Shown here piece by piece: positions 1 through 51,982 of a stretch of DNA of 64,000 nucleotides. Origin of the DNA: Agelas oroides. Its lineage: Eukaryota; Porifera; Demospongiae; Agelasida; Agelasidae. The stretch lies in assembly GCA_949130485.1 (NCBI GenBank), contig OX422194.1, forward strand, positions 1,176,243-1,240,242, written 5' to 3'. The notes beneath the pieces are model-generated. The model had not been told where the DNA came from. It searched no databases and worked only from the letters and a program-made list of their open reading frames with translations. The position numbers and the translations under genes were made by a program. Positions within the stretch are counted from its first letter, which is position 1. Every line of letters starts with the position of its first letter.

Positions 1-120
1 TACAAGAAGCTTCTACTGCTGCCTCTTGATCGCAGGGGCGGCTCTCCGGAAGTGGTTGGCCCCGCTCGTTTGGAGCCTATCTATCTACCTGGTATGCTGT
101 CAAACTTATCTTGTTCCATA

Positions 121-385
121 TGTGTGGCAGTCCCGTGTAGAAATCGAAGGTTATTCCGTCGCGTATTTCGATTGCCGCTGCGTTCAAAGCGCCTTATCGC
201 TGAACTTCCGTCCAGGGCGGCGCTCATACGCGCTTTGTAGACTCATTAGATATTCATGCATCTACAAAGTACGTATGAGCCCCGCCCTTAACGGAAGTTC
301 AGCGATACGGCGCTTTAAACGCAGCGATGCGATCGAAATACGCGACGGAATAACCTTCGATTTCTACACGGGACTGCCACATGTG
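121..385. repeat. Long inverted repeat (foldback/MITE-like)
   Basis: Two arms of about 120 bp (about 121-238 and 262-385) are reverse complements with scattered mismatches, separated by a short AT-rich loop. The arms are CpG-rich, unlike the flanks. The reading frame that crosses it encodes no recognisable domain and is a by-product of the palindrome. Confidence 0.8.
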
Positions 386-454
386 CTTATTATGCAGCCT
401 CAAAACAGGGGAGTTTCAATCACATTTGTGAATTACAGAATTGAATCAGATTAG

Positions 455-990
455 CACAAAAAAAAATCTATTTTAGGCTCAGGCGTACACTAACCATACC
501 TTAATGAATTTGTGGGGAGCGCAGCCAATCACAATCAAGCACACAGAAGCCTCCTAAATGCAGGAAGATAAGGAAGCTGGCTCAAATTTCATTGGAGGGA
601 GATAAGGTTTTACACTTGAAATGGAGAGCTTTAGAGAGAGAGAGTGTGTGTGACGTTTCCATGGAAATGTATTTAAACTTTATCCCTTATTGTGTTACTG
701 CTTGCAAATTGCAACAACAATTTATAGAGTTCGGAAGTAGCCCTTATTAGTGAAAAAGGAACACGGTTAAGGAAATATAGTAAATTGTGTGCATGTCGTT
801 AACACAAGAAGGGCAGTAAATAAATTGTGTTATGGTAGTGAAGATATACGAGTTGTATATGGAGTTGTGTGCGATTAAATTAGTAATCAAATTAGCACAA
901 ACTTGTTTATTTGAAAAGAGAGACATGTTGGTCTAAACAGGGGTGCTCGGAGCTTGTTCTAGCTCCGTCCTCGGATTCTCTCTCTTGTGA
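455..990. other. Intergenic, nothing recognised
   Basis: AT-rich sequence with a short GA/GT run near 630-650. I see no reading frame, RNA gene or repeat structure that I can name. Confidence 0.5.
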
Positions 991-1002
991 ACTGAATGAA
1001 CA

Positions 1003-1627
1003 GGCAGAGAGGAGGGAAATAGAGAGGAGAGAGGCTGAGAGGAGGGAGATAGAGAGGAGAGAGGCTGAGGCTGAGAGGAGAGACAGAGAAGAGAGACAGA
1101 GGAGGGAGACAGAGGAGGGAGATAGAGAGGAGAGAGGCTGAGGCTGAGAGGAGAGAGGAGGGAGACAGAGAAGAGAGACAGAGGAGGGAGACAGAGGAGG
1201 GAGACAGAGAAGGGAGACAGAGGAGGGAGATAGAGAAGGGAGACAGAGGAGGGAGACAGAGGAGGGAGACAGAGAAGGGAGATGAGACAGAGAAGGGAGA
1301 CAGAGAAGGGAGACAGAGAAGGGAGACAGAGGAGGGAGACAGATGAGACAGAGAAGGGAGACAGAGGAAGGAGACAGAGAGAAGGGAGACAGAGAAGGGA
1401 GACAGAGGAGGGAGACAGAGGAGGGAGACAGATGAGGGAGACAGAGAAGGGTGACAGAGAAGGGAGACAGAGAAGGGAGACAGAGAAGGGAGACAGAGAA
1501 GGGAGACAGAGAAGGGAGACAGAGAAGGGAGACAGAGGAGGGAGACAGAGGAGGGAGACAGAGGAGGGAGACAGAGGAGGGAGACAGAGGAGGGAGACAG
1601 AGGAGGGAGACAGAAGGGAGACAGAAA
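1003..1627. repeat. Purine-rich 13-bp minisatellite
   Basis: About 48 copies of a 13-bp unit of the form GGAGGGAGACAGA, with GAAGGGAGACAGA and GGAGAGAGGCTGA variants at the left. The plus strand is almost pure purine with a periodic C. The Arg/Glu-rich (+) and Leu/Ser/Pro-rich (-) frames across it repeat every 13 codons, as a 13-bp period predicts, so they are not genes. Confidence 0.95.
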
Positions 1628-1635
1628 ACCCCTAG

Positions 1636-2425
1636 TATGCTTATTTAATTTAGATAGTAAAACCAGGCGCCAAAGAGTGTGGCATTTCATGAGCTCATGG
1701 TGGAACTAATGAGTACAAATTAGAGCTACCACCTCAAAATGATTGGCATGTAACCATAGTGTTCTGTGAAGGGATGTAGGGCTGCAAACTACCCACTGTT
1801 ATTGGCCAGGCTTGACTAAAGGTAGCTTTATAAATAGCAACCTTTATCCTTCTTGCACTTTACCCTGTTGGCAGTTGCGTCAATAGATGGAATGTGCATG
1901 TAGTAAACATACGTACAGGTTGTGTATATTCATATTGTGTTGTTTATGATGAAGCTGTGGATTATTTATGGGGAAACTAGTCTATCAAGCCAGACCACCT
2001 TTCTCCCTGGTCTGGCTTGATAGACTAGAGGTAAACCGAGCGAACCCCACACAATGTGTAGTCTATGAAAATTTGTAGTATGTAAATATGTCTGTCTGCA
2101 ATTCCGTGCCATTATGTTAGACCGTACATGTGCATGACTTTCATTTCAAGTTCTGTTCTTTGTAAAACAAGTGCCTGCAGACACCGATTGCTTGGGCTGT
2201 CCTGTAGCTCCTAGCTTAGTACGAGGACATAAAGCTGGGACTGTGTTCGATATGTTGGGGAGGTTATAAATAAGCATGCTTAGGTGTACACTTGATAGCG
2301 TGTATTTAGCTGCAAGCACACCCAGATAAACATTGTAATTAGTCTCATTCCCAGACCCTCAGTATGGTATTCTGGGAACAAGACTACATTGTAATGTACT
2401 CTTGACAGCCACACACTCGGACGAG
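1636..2425. other. Intergenic with one short palindrome
   Basis: No gene is supported. The stretch holds the 52-bp palindrome at 1978-2029 and otherwise unremarkable AT-rich sequence. Confidence 0.5.
1978..2029. repeat. Short palindromic element
   Basis: Two 21-bp arms beginning CTAGTCTATCAAGCCAGACC are perfect inverted copies around a 10-bp loop. It resembles the short palindromic MITEs elsewhere in the window but has a different terminal sequence. Confidence 0.8.
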
Positions 2426-2427
2426 AA

Positions 2428-3232
2428 TTGATGACAGTAATCTTATAATGTTGTATGCACACTTCCCCCAGACAGGTCACAGCTCGTTTTAAGTGTAAAT
2501 GTTGCAAGCTTCAGAGCGCCCCTCATTTCAACCGTGACTACGCAATACAATATGACTACACTGTGAAACAGTACCTGTAGGGATGCATGCTGGTGTATGT
2601 GAAATTTGACCTCTATTGTGACATTATCGGACGACATATAGGGGATTGTGGGTGTAGGCGACTGTCCTATGGTTGTAGCTAAGTGGTCAGAACACTGGAA
2701 GCTCAAGCCAGGAGCCCTGGATTCAATTCCCAGCAAGTGCCAGCTTTTTTGTTTTTCTTGCTCAAACATTGGTCTTTACAGCCAAGTATTATACTCGATC
2801 ACTTATTCATACTGCAAGCAACAAACATGCAAATATTTCCGACAGAAATTTGCTAAAATGGAATGACAAGAATCCACTCAACAATTGTTAAATCCAATCA
2901 AAACCGACATCACAATGACACAGATAACTTAGAAATGTCAATGAAACTACCCAACACCATCCCATTCTTGCGTCACCGACAGCATGTTAGCACCTGATAA
3001 TTTTATAGTAGGGAAGGTCAAATTTCACATACACCAGCACGCATCCCTAAAAACTTTCCAGGTACTGTTTCGTAATGTAGTCATATTGCATTGCACAGTC
3101 ACGGTTGAAAGGAGGGGCGCTTTGATCCCGTCTGAAGCTTCTAACATCCCATCACCTTACACCAAACGTAATTAAAATGATCTGTGACCTGTCTGGGGGA
3201 AGTGTGCATACAACATTATAGGATTACTGTTG
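2428..3232. repeat. Large foldback element (about 0.8 kb)
   Basis: The left arm (about 2428-2637) and right arm (about 2990-3232) are diverged inverted copies. Both carry the same blocks in mirror order: a CAGACAGGTCACAG-type block, a block around GCGCCCCTC, and a block around ATGCATCCCTA. The centre contains a tRNA-derived SINE head at 2671-2750. Confidence 0.75.
2671..2750 (+). mobile_element. tRNA-derived SINE head
   Basis: The sequence GGTTGTAGCTAAGTGGTCAG resembles a tRNA A box. About 40 bp later GGATTCAATTCCC resembles a B box. Related heads occur on the minus strand near 14268-14359 and 44048-44128. The block does not fold as a full tRNA, so it is not called a tRNA gene. Confidence 0.65.
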
Positions 3233-3720
3233 CCTGAGGGCGTTGACAAAGGCGCCATAATGGATTATAACATTCTTATATTACTGGTATTGCAACCAAT
3301 TAGTGGATTCGTACCTCCAGATAGGCTCGCGGAATCTTGGCTAGGTCTGATGCAAAGGGAGAAAAAAATAAAAATAAAAAAGCTGATTTTATCAACAAAA
3401 AGTATATGTGCATGTAACCTCATTTCCAGGCCTCCATTTTTGATTTTTTTTTTTTTCTATGAAACTTTATGCATAATGCAAAGACACAAGAATAGTGAAA
3501 GTTCCCTAATATGTGCCCATAAAAATAAACTATGAGGAGTGAATATAATTCTTAAAAACAGAGTGCAGAAGAACTTTTTCGAGGGTCTTGTTCCGAGACT
3601 AAAGAGACACTAATGTTCGAGGAGCTTCTACCTATCATATGGATAAGGCCAGCCACCTGACTGAATTTGTGCATGAGATAGCGTCCCCATCTCCCGGTCA
3701 CCCCAATGCAGGTGATGAGG
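3233..3720. other. Intergenic, nothing recognised
   Basis: Short open frames only, with no splice-site or domain support. Poly-T and poly-A runs occur near 3361-3380 and 3444-3455. Confidence 0.4.
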
Positions 3721-3968
3721 CCAGTGTTGTTTCTAAAGCCAAAACTAAAATACATTGTAGTAAGGCATAAAACCTTTTAGTAATTAAAACTAAAACTAAA
3801 ATTGATGCTGCCTTAGTCCATTAATTAAAAACTACAACTTAACTACTTAAAAATCACCAAAAAACAGTAGTTAACTACTAGATTTAGTAATTAAAACTAC
3901 AACTAAACTAACAATTTGAACCTCCGGCCAAAACTACAAGTCCAAACACTGAACTAAAACAACACTGG
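3721..3968. mobile_element. AT-rich TIR element (ACTAAAA family), copy 1
   Basis: It starts CCAGTGTTGTTT and ends with the complement AAACAACACTGG. The interior is dominated by ACTAAAA-type words. Two related copies lie at 12716-12993 (opposite orientation) and 30358-30606, so this is a dispersed non-autonomous family. Confidence 0.8.
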
Positions 3969-4645
3969 ATGAGGCCTGGTATTGGCCAAAACACGTCCTG
4001 TGCAGTGGGTGACTTTGCATAACATGCATATATGTATAGGGGCATCCGTTTGACATCATGTATACTATATTTTCACCAATTTCTGCATATGTGCTGTCAT
4101 GTTAGCCTTGTTCCCAGGCCACTCCCAGATTTTATCTCACAGTTGTGGAGAAGCTGCGAGATAAAATCTGGGAGTGGCCTGGGAATGAGGTTACTGTCAT
4201 GTTGAGGGGTAAATAAATTATATGGTGAGCCTAATCTACAACTTGCTTCAAGGTACGGAGCATGCATTTCAGCTTCAACTTCAGAGAGCTACTACAGAGG
4301 CTTCACATCACATATTTATACAAGATACTGCAGTGAAGTAGTTTGATGTGCTAGTACAAATTAATGTTGCCTACATAAACAATGTGATGACATAAATGAA
4401 ATGCATGCCTTCTATTGTCTGGAACATCTAGTTTTACTGCATGAAGAAGGACCAACCTTTGGCTGAGTCCTAGTAGCTAGTTGTGTCAGGATCGTTCATA
4501 GCAAATTTCTCCTTAATTAATGAACAGATTATATACTTGCAAATGAAGATCCAGAAATGAGGCAAGGTGTGTATACAAGCTAGCAACGTGTGTGTGTGTG
4601 TGCAGAAGCTACCAACAACACTAATTCCTACAGTATAAATCTGAC
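3969..4645. other. Presumed intron or intergenic region downstream of PRXL2C-like exon 2
   Basis: This interval contains the palindromic MITE at 4102-4192 and a short GT run near 4590. I searched its minus strand for the remaining PRXL2C exons (central strand/helix motifs and C-terminal segment) and found nothing convincing. Confidence 0.4.
4102..4192. mobile_element. Palindromic MITE (GCCTYRTTCCCAGGCC family)
   Basis: The inverted arms read TTAGCCTTGTTCCCAGGCC inward from the left and GGCCTGGGAATGAGGTTA at the right. CTGTCATG occurs directly on both sides, an 8-bp target duplication. The core matches the element at 21133-21261. Confidence 0.85.
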
Positions 4646-5061
4646 CTTGGACATACTCCTGACACACATATCAAAGAAAGTGCTGCAGAAAGGTCAAGAA
4701 ATAGCCTTTGATGCATGTAGGTGTTAATTAGTGTAGACCCCCAGACCTATTTTACTGGTTAAAGGGGTCAGAAATCCACATTAGGTGTAACTGCAGAGTC
4801 TATGGGAGTGCAACCCCCCCCCCCCCCCCCCCCCCCCTTGTCCCCTTCCCTTATTCCTAGAATACACGCTTTAGGAGCATTATTCTATTTAATGCCTACC
4901 CGGACGAAGATTATAACGGTCTTCTGGTCCCTGTACAGTCCCCCAAACTCCAACTCGCTGCCCTCCCCGTCGAACACCTTCAGTTTTTCGGCTGCGGTGA
5001 ACCTCGCGGTTATATCGTCGCTGGATGGGGAAGAAACAGGGTCTTCGGGAGCAGTTGCCAT
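4646..5061 (-). CDS. PRXL2C/AAED1-like (SelU family) redox protein, first two exons, probable selenoprotein
   Basis: Exon 1 (5061-4900) encodes 54 residues ending in the family motif TVIIFVR. It is followed by donor GTAGGC and a 217-bp intron. Exon 2 (4682-4646, 37 nt) follows a TTTCTGCAG acceptor in phase 0 and reads HFL-TGA-YVCQEYVQ, then donor GTCAGA. Animal PRXL2C proteins have FVRHFLCYxCKEYV here, so the TGA (4673-4671) sits exactly at the first Cys of the CxxC redox motif, giving U-x-x-C. The family has a thioredoxin/peroxiredoxin-like fold, and SelU relatives use selenocysteine in some lineages (established). Sec decoding here is inference: later exons and a SECIS were not found, so a broken pseudogene remains possible. 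It diverges from the RhoGAP gene 126 bp away. Confidence 0.72.
4808..4837. repeat. Poly-C run in intron 1 of the PRXL2C-like gene
   Basis: An uninterrupted C run of about 28 bp on the plus strand (poly-G on the sense strand of the gene). Confidence 0.9.
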
Positions 5062-5187
5062 ATCTAACGAATAATTGGAACAAAATATTGAACTCCAAAA
5101 GGGGGGTGGGGCTCAAGCCGTGCAAAAAGTGAACAGTTTTCTTCTAACAAACTTCATGAAATTTCCTTCTTCTTGCTGCAGGTCGCA

Positions 5188-7242
5188 ATGGCTGCAGTAG
5201 CTTCAAACGAGATTGTGTTGGCGCCTGTTTCAAAACAAAAAAAGAAGCGGATCCTCCCTCCTCTAGTATCAGGAACACAAACGGGAAGCTACTCGCAAAA
5301 CCAGCAGCTGCAGAGAAAGAGATCGGACGTACAGCCTGACATGAACCGCCTTTCAAAGCTATCTCCCAATATCCTTGCCCAGTTGAAGGCAGTTGAGGTT
5401 GAAAACACTTTGACCCCTGCGCATATTTTTAAAGATCTCAAGGACACGGAGATTCCAAAGGGGAAAAAGATGAGCCAACTCACTTTGAAATCTGGCAAAA
5501 AGCTTGATATCTGTCTGGAGGAAGGAACGTTTAGAAGAATAGCAGGCATGAAGGAAACGACAGACGCTTCTGGTTCGTTCAAGATCCGAGTTGTTGAACT
5601 GGAGAGGGAGCCCGGAAGGAGTCTGGGGTTTTACATCAGGCAGGGAGATGGCTGGACCAGAGATGACGGGATATTTATCTCAAGGGTCAACCTTGGGAGT
5701 TTGGTGGAAACAAATGGCCTTCTCAGTATGGGTGATGAAATCTTGAAAGTAAACAACGTCAATGTTACAAGAATGCCGTTTGATGATGTTGTAGTGATTA
5801 TGCAGTACGTGAAGAAATTAGTTCTCACAATAAAAATCCTGACATCGGTTTCACTGACACGTACCCGACACCAAACCAGTTTCATCAGACAAAGACAGTC
5901 CCACACCGATTCAAAACTGACTGATTTTGAAGAAGATGCTAAGCAGAGCAGAAACACTCACAATAAAGAGGAAACATCTTCTCAACTTGCCAACACATCT
6001 GAATCAGAGTACGAAAGGCCTGACCATCCATATGAACGCATAGACTTTATACAAGAAAAGCCACCAGAAACCATCGCTAAAGATTTGAGCAGTCCTCCGG
6101 AACACAAACCGCCATTACCACCACTGACAAGCAATTCCATCTCAGAGGAATCTCTCCAGGCGGCTAGAGACGCTCAGAAGTCACGTAAGAGTACGGCGGA
6201 GGTTGAGGAGTCTTCGACTTTCAGCGAGTTCTCCACAGGGACACTAGTAACATCCATGGCTTCCCATGAGGTTCAATACTCTGGGATGCTTTCGGTCACC
6301 CTACATGGCTTACATAATACTGTGACTGTAGCAGATAAAACTACCAACATTGCTTGCACTATATCTGTTGGAGCTGTCCCCAAGGCAGAAGCACAGGTAG
6401 GTTTTGAAGATAAATCAGAAATGTTTCTTATTGATTTGGTAAATAATACTCACTTCACAATTTCGCTGACAAGTGGAGAGTTGACAGCATCCAAAAGTGT
6501 CCACTTAGTACAGCTCTTCTCCTCTCCAAATGACAGGGAATCTCGAAACATACTTCTGAATATCGAGCCTATTGGGAGACTTAAGGTTTCCCTAGAGTAT
6601 CAGCCTATGAGGGTAGCAGTTTCACGCATGATCCCACACGGTACCAGCCCCTCTGCGACCTCATTCAAAGAGTTCATTGATTCAAACCCAAGTCAATCTG
6701 GACTCCCACTTGTGGTGCAAAAGTCCATCCAAATTATAGAGCAGTACGGTTTGGAAACATCTGGATTATACAGCATGTGTGCTTCTGAAGACGCCAAAGC
6801 GGAAGCGTTTAATGCCACCCTTAGCCAAACGAAGAACCAGGCTGAGATTAAAGAGATAGTCTCTCGAGTTTCAGTGCATGCTTTCACTGGGGTACTCAAG
6901 GATTTCTTCCGCACCCTCCCTGAGCCTTTTTTCACAAACGATACCTGTTTGACTCTGACGGAAGCTGCAACCATGGAAAATGCGCAGAGTGTGATGGGGA
7001 AGTTTGTAGAATGCCTACCCGAAGAAGTACTCACAACACTACATTTCTTGCTCACTCATTTCAAAGACGTTTTTAAGCACTCGTCTGCTAATGGTGTCAC
7101 GGTGGATAGCCTGGCCAAAATGTTTGGTCCTTTGTTGCTGACTCCAACCTTAGATCCCACTGCTAAAGCCGATCCTCTCGCAGAAGATTTTGAGGCACAG
7201 GCAAACGTTCTGAAAATAATACTTTCTATGCAAACTGTATAA
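5188..7242 (+). CDS. SYD-1/RhoGAP100F-like PDZ-C2-RhoGAP protein, single coding exon
   Basis: An intact 684-residue frame from ATG 5188. Domains in order: a PDZ of the LGFYIR carboxylate-loop type (residues about 131-219), a C2-like domain (about 364-475) and a RhoGAP domain (about 491-668). This architecture is that of SYD-1 (nematode) and RhoGAP100F (Drosophila), presynaptic scaffold/Rho regulators at the cell cortex. The helix with the catalytic arginine reads ETSGLYSMCAS, with Ser (residue 529) where active RhoGAPs have Arg. The LKDFFRTLPEPF helix is present. GAP activity is therefore doubtful. The coding region lacks introns, unlike neighbouring genes. A CTGCAG directly before the ATG looks like a splice acceptor, so a 5'-UTR exon may exist. 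It converges with BTBD19. Confidence 0.9.
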   Translation: MAAVASNEIVLAPVSKQKKKRILPPLVSGTQTGSYSQNQQLQRKRSDVQPDMNRLSKLSPNILAQLKAVEVENTLTPAHIFKDLKDTEIPKGKKMSQLTLKSGKKLDICLEEGTFRRIAGMKETTDASGSFKIRVVELEREPGRSLGFYIRQGDGWTRDDGIFISRVNLGSLVETNGLLSMGDEILKVNNVNVTRMPFDDVVVIMQYVKKLVLTIKILTSVSLTRTRHQTSFIRQRQSHTDSKLTDFEEDAKQSRNTHNKEETSSQLANTSESEYERPDHPYERIDFIQEKPPETIAKDLSSPPEHKPPLPPLTSNSISEESLQAARDAQKSRKSTAEVEESSTFSEFSTGTLVTSMASHEVQYSGMLSVTLHGLHNTVTVADKTTNIACTISVGAVPKAEAQVGFEDKSEMFLIDLVNNTHFTISLTSGELTASKSVHLVQLFSSPNDRESRNILLNIEPIGRLKVSLEYQPMRVAVSRMIPHGTSPSATSFKEFIDSNPSQSGLPLVVQKSIQIIEQYGLETSGLYSMCASEDAKAEAFNATLSQTKNQAEIKEIVSRVSVHAFTGVLKDFFRTLPEPFFTNDTCLTLTEAATMENAQSVMGKFVECLPEEVLTTLHFLLTHFKDVFKHSSANGVTVDSLAKMFGPLLLTPTLDPTAKADPLAEDFEAQANVLKIILSMQTV

Positions 7243-51327: not shown

Positions 51328-51348
51328 ATCCTCCACTAACCTCAAACT

Positions 51349-51364
51349 GGCTCTTCTAAGAGCC
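51349..51364 (+). terminator. Histone mRNA 3' stem-loop
   Basis: GGCTCTTCTAAGAGCC is a perfect 6-bp stem with a 4-base loop, the SLBP-binding element of metazoan replication-dependent histone mRNAs. A purine-containing CAAAAGA, a candidate U7 target, follows about 12 bp downstream. It starts 21 bp after the H4 stop. Confidence 0.95.
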
Positions 51365-51389
51365 ACCACACTTGCAAAAGATTTTATCA

Positions 51390-51982
51390 TGACTGCTTAC
51401 ACGTGAAGTTCCCCACACCTGAACATGCTTGATTTTTTATCTTCAGGACATCAATTATCACCATAGTACAACATCATCAATAATGGTATTCCACAATGTG
51501 TTTCATAGCTGTTATTTTCTGAACATGGAGAAGTGGATTCTTTTCACCTGAAAAGCTTCCATACAGGAGGACTCTGTCTGACAACAGAGAGCGGCACGAC
51601 AAGGACTAAGATCTCCCTGGAACACAATACTACATCACACTGCAGCTAGACAGCATGCTTGAAACCTAAATCTGCACCCATCCGTGGCATCAGTGTTCCC
51701 AGACTTAGGGAAATATCCCTAGATCTAGGGGATTTGATACAACTAGGGAAAGATTTTTCTAAAATGGCAAAATCGAATTGTACAGAGACTTTGTGATAAA
51801 ATGCCAGTATCTAGGGAATTACAGTATGGATGGGGCTTTGCCAATATCAAAATATCAGACATGCAATCCCTACCGAGATACAATTGTTTTTCCGCCTTCA
51901 TACGGGCCTGGTTACAGTAAACTAATATGAAAATCTACAAAATTACAAGAATGTATATACATATCGAAAGACGTCAGTGACA
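51390..51982. other. Intergenic, nothing recognised
   Basis: AT-rich. A phrase around CCCTAGATCTAGGGGA (51707-51722) is a small palindrome. No gene supported. Confidence 0.4.

Follow-up and report, generated by a model that had tools for sequence, protein, structure and literature searches.

The PRXL2 (SelU) family of peroxiredoxin-like proteins relies on a CxxC motif, whose first cysteine makes the attack on the substrate, leaving an intermediate for the second to resolve. Selenocysteine (Sec, U) in the first place is a stronger nucleophile. In the genome of the sponge Agelas oroides, a PRXL2-type gene carries an in-frame TGA at the codon for that first cysteine, and the locus therefore raises the question of whether the TGA ends translation, marks a decaying gene, or encodes Sec.

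The SelU family is divided into SelU1, SelU2 (C9orf21-like) and SelU3 (prostamide/PGF synthase); in the portions of PMC3473315 cited here, the sole Sec-containing SelU2 reported is that of Trichoplax adhaerens, an AhpC-like selenoprotein family is restricted to sponges, four SelU genes, some named SelU3, are tabulated for the sponge Amphimedon, and SelU2 is viewed as a selenoprotein in early animals. In the portions of PMC3316567 cited here, all Sec-containing SelU sequences examined belong to SelU1, and no evidence is found that SelU2 and SelU3 switched from Sec to Cys early on. Among more distant relatives, the cited parts of two further papers describe a prokaryotic PF13911 selenoprotein with UxxS (PMC9312934) and an algal AhpC_b with UxxC (PMC7539508).

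In this study, we examine the gene structure, redox motif, selenocysteine insertion sequence (SECIS), tRNA-Sec genes and Sec-position relatives that bear on this TGA. All five lines of evidence come from sequence, and from them we infer that the gene is transcribed, that Sec is inserted and how the product reacts. The data lead to the conclusion that the locus is very probably a working selenoprotein gene, probably a Sec form of SelU2 (PRXL2C, also AAED1/C9orf21). An annotation that treats TGA solely as a stop would probably truncate this gene at residue 57.

An eight-exon gene with a single in-frame TGA

The window, that is, the whole stretch of 64,000 nucleotides that was analysed, corresponds to C12:1176243-1240242 in a 259 Mb assembly of 141 contigs. 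The 10 kb of C12 before the window are designated L002, whose coordinates convert to those of C12 on addition of 1166242. The region first annotated, window 4646-5061, covers only exons 1 and 2 of an eight-exon gene that runs out of the window on the minus strand; exons 5-8, the stop codon and the SECIS candidate lie outside it, between C12 positions 1175367 and 1168991. The coding features are as follows.

Window 5061-4900, minus strand: exon 1, start codon at 5061-5059, phase 0 at its end, donor following
Window 4682-4646, minus strand: exon 2, 37 nt, HFL-TGA-YVCQEYVQ plus one base
Window 4673-4671, minus strand: in-frame TGA (codon 58), probably read as Sec, opening the UxxC redox motif
Window 4664-4662, minus strand: TGT, second (resolving) Cys of UxxC, intact
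Window 3346-3315, minus strand: exon 3, (G)AC-LAKIPRAYLE, phase 1 to 0
Window 553-500, minus strand: exon 4, EASVCLIVIGCAPHKFIK
L002 9125-9107, minus strand: exon 5, 19 nt, outside the window
L002 6928-6842, minus strand: exon 6, outside the window
L002 4995-4873, minus strand: exon 7, outside the window
L002 3040-2931, minus strand: exon 8, containing TAA, outside the window

Exon 1 translates as MATAPEDPVSS...KTVIIFVR (MATAPEDPVSSPSSDDITARFTAAEKLKVFDGEGSELEFGGLYRDQKTVIIFVR). The sequence, phase and splice sites given for exon 2 in the first-pass annotation were confirmed: its acceptor is TTTCTGCAG, its donor is GTCAGA, and its phases match those of exon 1 (0) and exon 3 (1). That annotation had left the remaining exons to be sought; exons 3 and 4 were found within the window and exons 5-8 in its flank, with GT-AG borders on all introns and consistent phases throughout. 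The spliced total is 624 nt, or 207 codons plus the TAA stop, and the TGA at codon 58 is the sole internal stop. Skipping of exon 2 would bring in a stop at the second codon past exon 1.

Exon 5 is the least certain exon. It was chosen among 91 candidates as one that has the required length and phase and that comes third (tied with a fourth) when ranked by resemblance to a human fragment; its pyrimidine tract is the best among the 25 candidates listed. Two other microexon candidates with slightly better similarity had weak pyrimidine tracts and were dropped.

The introns are rich in repeats. A 55-bp minisatellite of about 26 copies (L002:5429-6860) extends into exon 6 by 19 nt, so intron 6 contains repeated copies of the exon end together with its GT donor. 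Long (CA)n tracts (L002:6930-6998 and 4997-5116) immediately precede the acceptors of both exon 6 and exon 7.

Exons 1 and 2 as a joint query matched the genome once at E<=0.001, and the gene thus looks single copy; exon 2 alone, at 12 residues, is too short for a genome search. No Cys version of exon 2 was found with one motif pattern on the minus strand of window positions 1-5100.

The first-pass annotation considered a random stop unlikely to fall on this codon. The TGA is the sole internal stop in 207 codons. With four Cys codons elsewhere in the protein, a random Cys-to-TGA change would strike the redox Cys about 1 time in 5, and the position by itself is therefore suggestive. What makes the case strong is the presence of a SECIS element, described below.

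Family assignment

The protein was searched against Pfam with Cys written at the TGA position. It matched PF13911 (AhpC-TSA_2; E 4.7e-16) over residues 76-181, with weaker matches to PF00578, PF05988 and PF08534. In the PDB, the only matches at E<=1 were to PRXL2B (prostamide/PGF synthase), namely 9us9 (E 3.4e-8) and 9usa (E 2.1e-5). FLUYVCQ of the sponge protein aligns with FGCVVCR of 9us9, which places the TGA in the column of the first Cys of CVVC, as the first-pass annotation had proposed; in 9usa, both motif cysteines read Ser. An AhpC-TSA_2 domain with a (C/U)xxC motif is what defines the PRXL2 (SelU) family, and membership in it, proposed from the outset, is supported by PF13911 and the PRXL2B matches.

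Homology thus continues past an in-frame UGA at a functional site, as in eukaryotic selenoproteins. The same observation bears on the reading of UGA as a real stop, or as a codon passed by selenium-free readthrough, which would yield either a fragment of 57 residues or a product of regulated readthrough. The indirect nature of the evidence for Sec insertion, read from sequence, speaks for such a product; the PF13911 match, however, lies wholly past the TGA, and a SECIS element is unnecessary for plain readthrough. We regard it as extremely unlikely.

Assignment to a subfamily is less direct. The stretch HFLxYxCxEYVxDLAKIP agrees with what we take to be the human PRXL2C (AAED1, C9orf21) sequence, and the genome has its own SelU3 gene (below), which makes PRXL2B identity unlikely. 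On these two grounds we infer the label PRXL2C/SelU2. A selenoprotein of another branch, whether SelL-like, of the sponge AhpC-like family or SelU1, is improbable, though one observation speaks for it: the only NCBIfam match is the SelL-related redox protein NF040769, at 81.4 bits. This score is below the 120-bit cut-off, and SelL presumably has a UxxU diselenide motif, whereas the motif here is UxxC. SelL identity was accordingly rejected, the second position being TGT. The flanking residues that fit PRXL2C weigh against the other branches as well, as do the identities of this protein to its relatives in the same genome: 17-21% to the AhpC-like proteins and 23% to the partial SelU3, against 51% between that SelU3 and PRXL2B.

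A candidate SECIS element and Sec decoding

The first-pass annotation had called for a SECIS search of the 3' UTR. A candidate was found in the 3' flank both by the Rfam model and by a custom scanner.

L002 2820-2749, minus strand: SECIS candidate, RF00031 (SECIS_1), 22.3 bits, model positions 1-64

In the RF00031 alignment the core elements AUGA, AAA and CUGAU are all in place. The match begins 110 nt past the TAA, in a stretch presumed to be 3' UTR, and its score is below the Rfam gathering score of 35. When L002 (10 kb) was searched against Rfam at a relaxed threshold, 34 matches were listed, with SECIS_1 once at E<=10 (E 1.5); the same site in the 501-base 3' flank alone had an E-value of 0.074, and both values already include a factor of 4227 families.

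The custom scanner requires the quartet, the bulge and two helices, with the quartet bases forced open. Over 8 kb downstream of the stop, its top-ranked hit was this site, at -21.0 kcal/mol. The settings were then tightened and the 500-nt flank was dinucleotide-shuffled 2000 times: 65 shuffles yielded a site at -17 or below and 15 one at -20.9 or below. Across 168 kb of real sequence, the -17 threshold was passed by 11 sites and the -20.9 threshold by two, namely this candidate and one in intron 5 (L002 about 7768). That intronic site, the score below gathering and the free fold all weigh against the candidate. Folded freely, the 84-nt element reaches -26.7 kcal/mol (z -2.23; 5 shuffles of 200 were equally stable), a moderate stability given its composition. 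The free fold retains the apical stem and leaves AAA unpaired, but it pairs the quartet bases that the scanner holds open. Five of six AhpC-like SECIS elements, folded alongside, had z-scores of -0.92 to -3.65.

At gathering thresholds Rfam had no match in the window, as follows from the position of the element outside it and from its score below gathering. A relaxed search of the 64 kb gave 88 matches with no SECIS_1 at E<=10. Also counting against the candidate is a genome-wide RF00031 search, in which 150 of 3834 candidates were scored and at least five matches were returned, the five listed all below 35. Neither the SECIS of this gene nor that of the AhpC-like gene L007 (26.6 bits) is among the five listed. 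At E<=10 Rfam listed one of six plus-strand AhpC-like SECIS elements, and the model thus seems to give SECIS elements in this genome scores that are too low. The 501-nt 3' flank had no match among phage records.

The genome also encodes the means to use such an element, as judged by its tRNA-Sec genes. A genome search found two, at 78 bits each, and ARAGORN called both tRNA-SeC with anticodon tca. Three weaker matches were below the cut-off, and the one checked was a tRNA-Ser.

Sec-position relatives in the same genome

A genome search with PF13911 returned at least 13 matches. One is exon 6 of the present gene (L016). AhpC-like genes account for at least eight more (L005-L012), and these have TGA at the redox column of this gene. 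These eight have longer, apparently intronless frames, and six of them lie within about 40 kb on C3. Two matches were left out of the alignment: L014, in which no redox exon was located, and L017, by eye a different peroxiredoxin. The redox column is U in all ten aligned sequences of the genome, namely the present gene, SelU3 and the eight AhpC-like genes. Three residues on, four of the AhpC-like sequences are UxxC and the other four again have U, in the motifs UGPU, UGKU, UPPU and USPU, in the order listed.

L005 (C3:4808871): AhpC-like, TGA at both redox positions, possible diselenide
L007 (C1:7259426): AhpC-like, TGA at both redox positions, possible diselenide
L010 (C3:4837419): AhpC-like, TGA at both redox positions, possible diselenide
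L012 (C7:399924): AhpC-like, TGA at both redox positions, possible diselenide
C8:1066731-1067538, minus strand: SelU3 (PRXL2B-like) gene, matches L013/L015, reads RRFGUQLCR

In L010, the stretch preceding the redox domain seems to be in a different frame from the domain itself, and this copy may be damaged. The C8 gene is taken for SelU3 because its partial protein is 51% identical to 9us9 (59 of 116 columns).

SECIS-like hairpins accompany these genes. At all six plus-strand AhpC-like loci, the best hairpin found under looser settings starts 38-64 nt past the end of the open frame. That of L008 is just past the stop (-21.8), that of L012 is weaker (-16.3) and is not the lowest-energy site there, and the SelU3 locus has one some hundreds of bases downstream (-20.5). 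The first-pass annotation noted that SelU relatives use Sec in some lineages; the TGA in the redox column of SelU3 agrees with this, as does Trichoplax SelU2 as reported in the cited portion of PMC3473315.

These relatives also bear on the possibility that a Cys-type gene is decaying or polymorphic here and that the TGA arose in it by nonsense mutation. In favour of this, a single base change turns a Cys codon into TGA, repeats abound in the introns, and a minisatellite extends into the end of exon 6. Against it stand 207 codons with no frameshift or further stop and splice sites kept in all eight exons, which likewise settles the pseudogene check named in the first-pass annotation, together with a SECIS located where it is needed and the use of Sec at this column elsewhere in the genome. 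A nonsense mutation is thus very unlikely, and the first-pass interpretation of a Sec-form PRXL2C/SelU-type gene largely holds.

Predicted mechanism and evolutionary implications

As a selenoprotein gene, the locus would be expressed as follows. The eight-exon mRNA would retain UGA at the redox position, and the SECIS hairpin 110 nt past the TAA would recruit the selenocysteine machinery and tRNA-Sec(UCA), so that the UGA would be read as Sec. Full-length enzyme would be produced only when the SECIS machinery decodes the UGA. The predicted product is a 207-residue peroxiredoxin-like protein of the thioredoxin fold with a U-Y-V-C redox pair, and its most likely role, with both chemistry and substrate predicted, would be that of a thiol/selenol peroxidase or reductase. 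Sec would attack a peroxide or disulfide, and the Cys three residues on would resolve the selenyl-sulfide.

Several known systems resemble this gene in part. Trichoplax SelU2 is of the same subfamily by the naming of PMC3473315, in its cited portion, and is also a Sec form in an early-branching animal, but of a different phylum. SelU3/PRXL2B is of the same family with its redox motif in the same column (CVVC in 9us9, UQLC in the C8 copy), yet 9us9 is 26% identical to the present protein and SelU3 is a separate gene in this genome. The AhpC-like genes, which we take to be the sponge AhpC-like family described in the cited part of PMC3473315, share PF13911, the column in which Sec occurs and, shortly past the frame, a SECIS-like hairpin, but differ in their longer, apparently intronless frames, their low identity to this protein (17-21%) and UxxU in four of eight. 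The vertebrate Sec form of SelU1/PRXL2A likewise reflects Sec/Cys exchange within SelU (PMC3316567, cited portion), but in a different branch. No Sec-containing sponge SelU2 was among the matches listed in a literature search of titles, abstract openings and open-licence PMC texts. Prokaryotic and viral relatives were represented by pattern matches, none of them confirmed in a genome or viral contig.

A Sec-form SelU2 outside Trichoplax bears on the view of SelU2 as an early-animal selenoprotein in the cited portion of PMC3473315, and the present gene fits that view. It bears also on the view, in the cited portion of PMC3316567, that there is no support for Cys having replaced Sec early in SelU2 and SelU3. 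We see an even chance that Sec is ancestral at the redox column for all animal PRXL2-type proteins, the Cys forms of vertebrate SelU2 then being losses and not original. If so, this genome retains Sec in SelU2, in SelU3 and in an enlarged AhpC-like set, some members of which are UxxU. Should Sec be retained at this position in sponges as well as placozoans, existing genomes would suffice to test when other animals lost it.

Locus neighbourhood

The start codon of the selenoprotein gene faces that of a PDZ-RhoGAP gene across 126 nt (window 5061-5188).

Window 5188-7242, plus strand: PDZ-RhoGAP gene, single open frame, 684 aa, head-to-head neighbour

With this arrangement and spacing, the two genes may share a promoter. 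Elsewhere in the window, at 51344-51390 on the plus strand, a histone 3' UTR stem-loop scores 32.7 bits (gathering score 34; E 1.4e-5), which suggests a histone gene just upstream.
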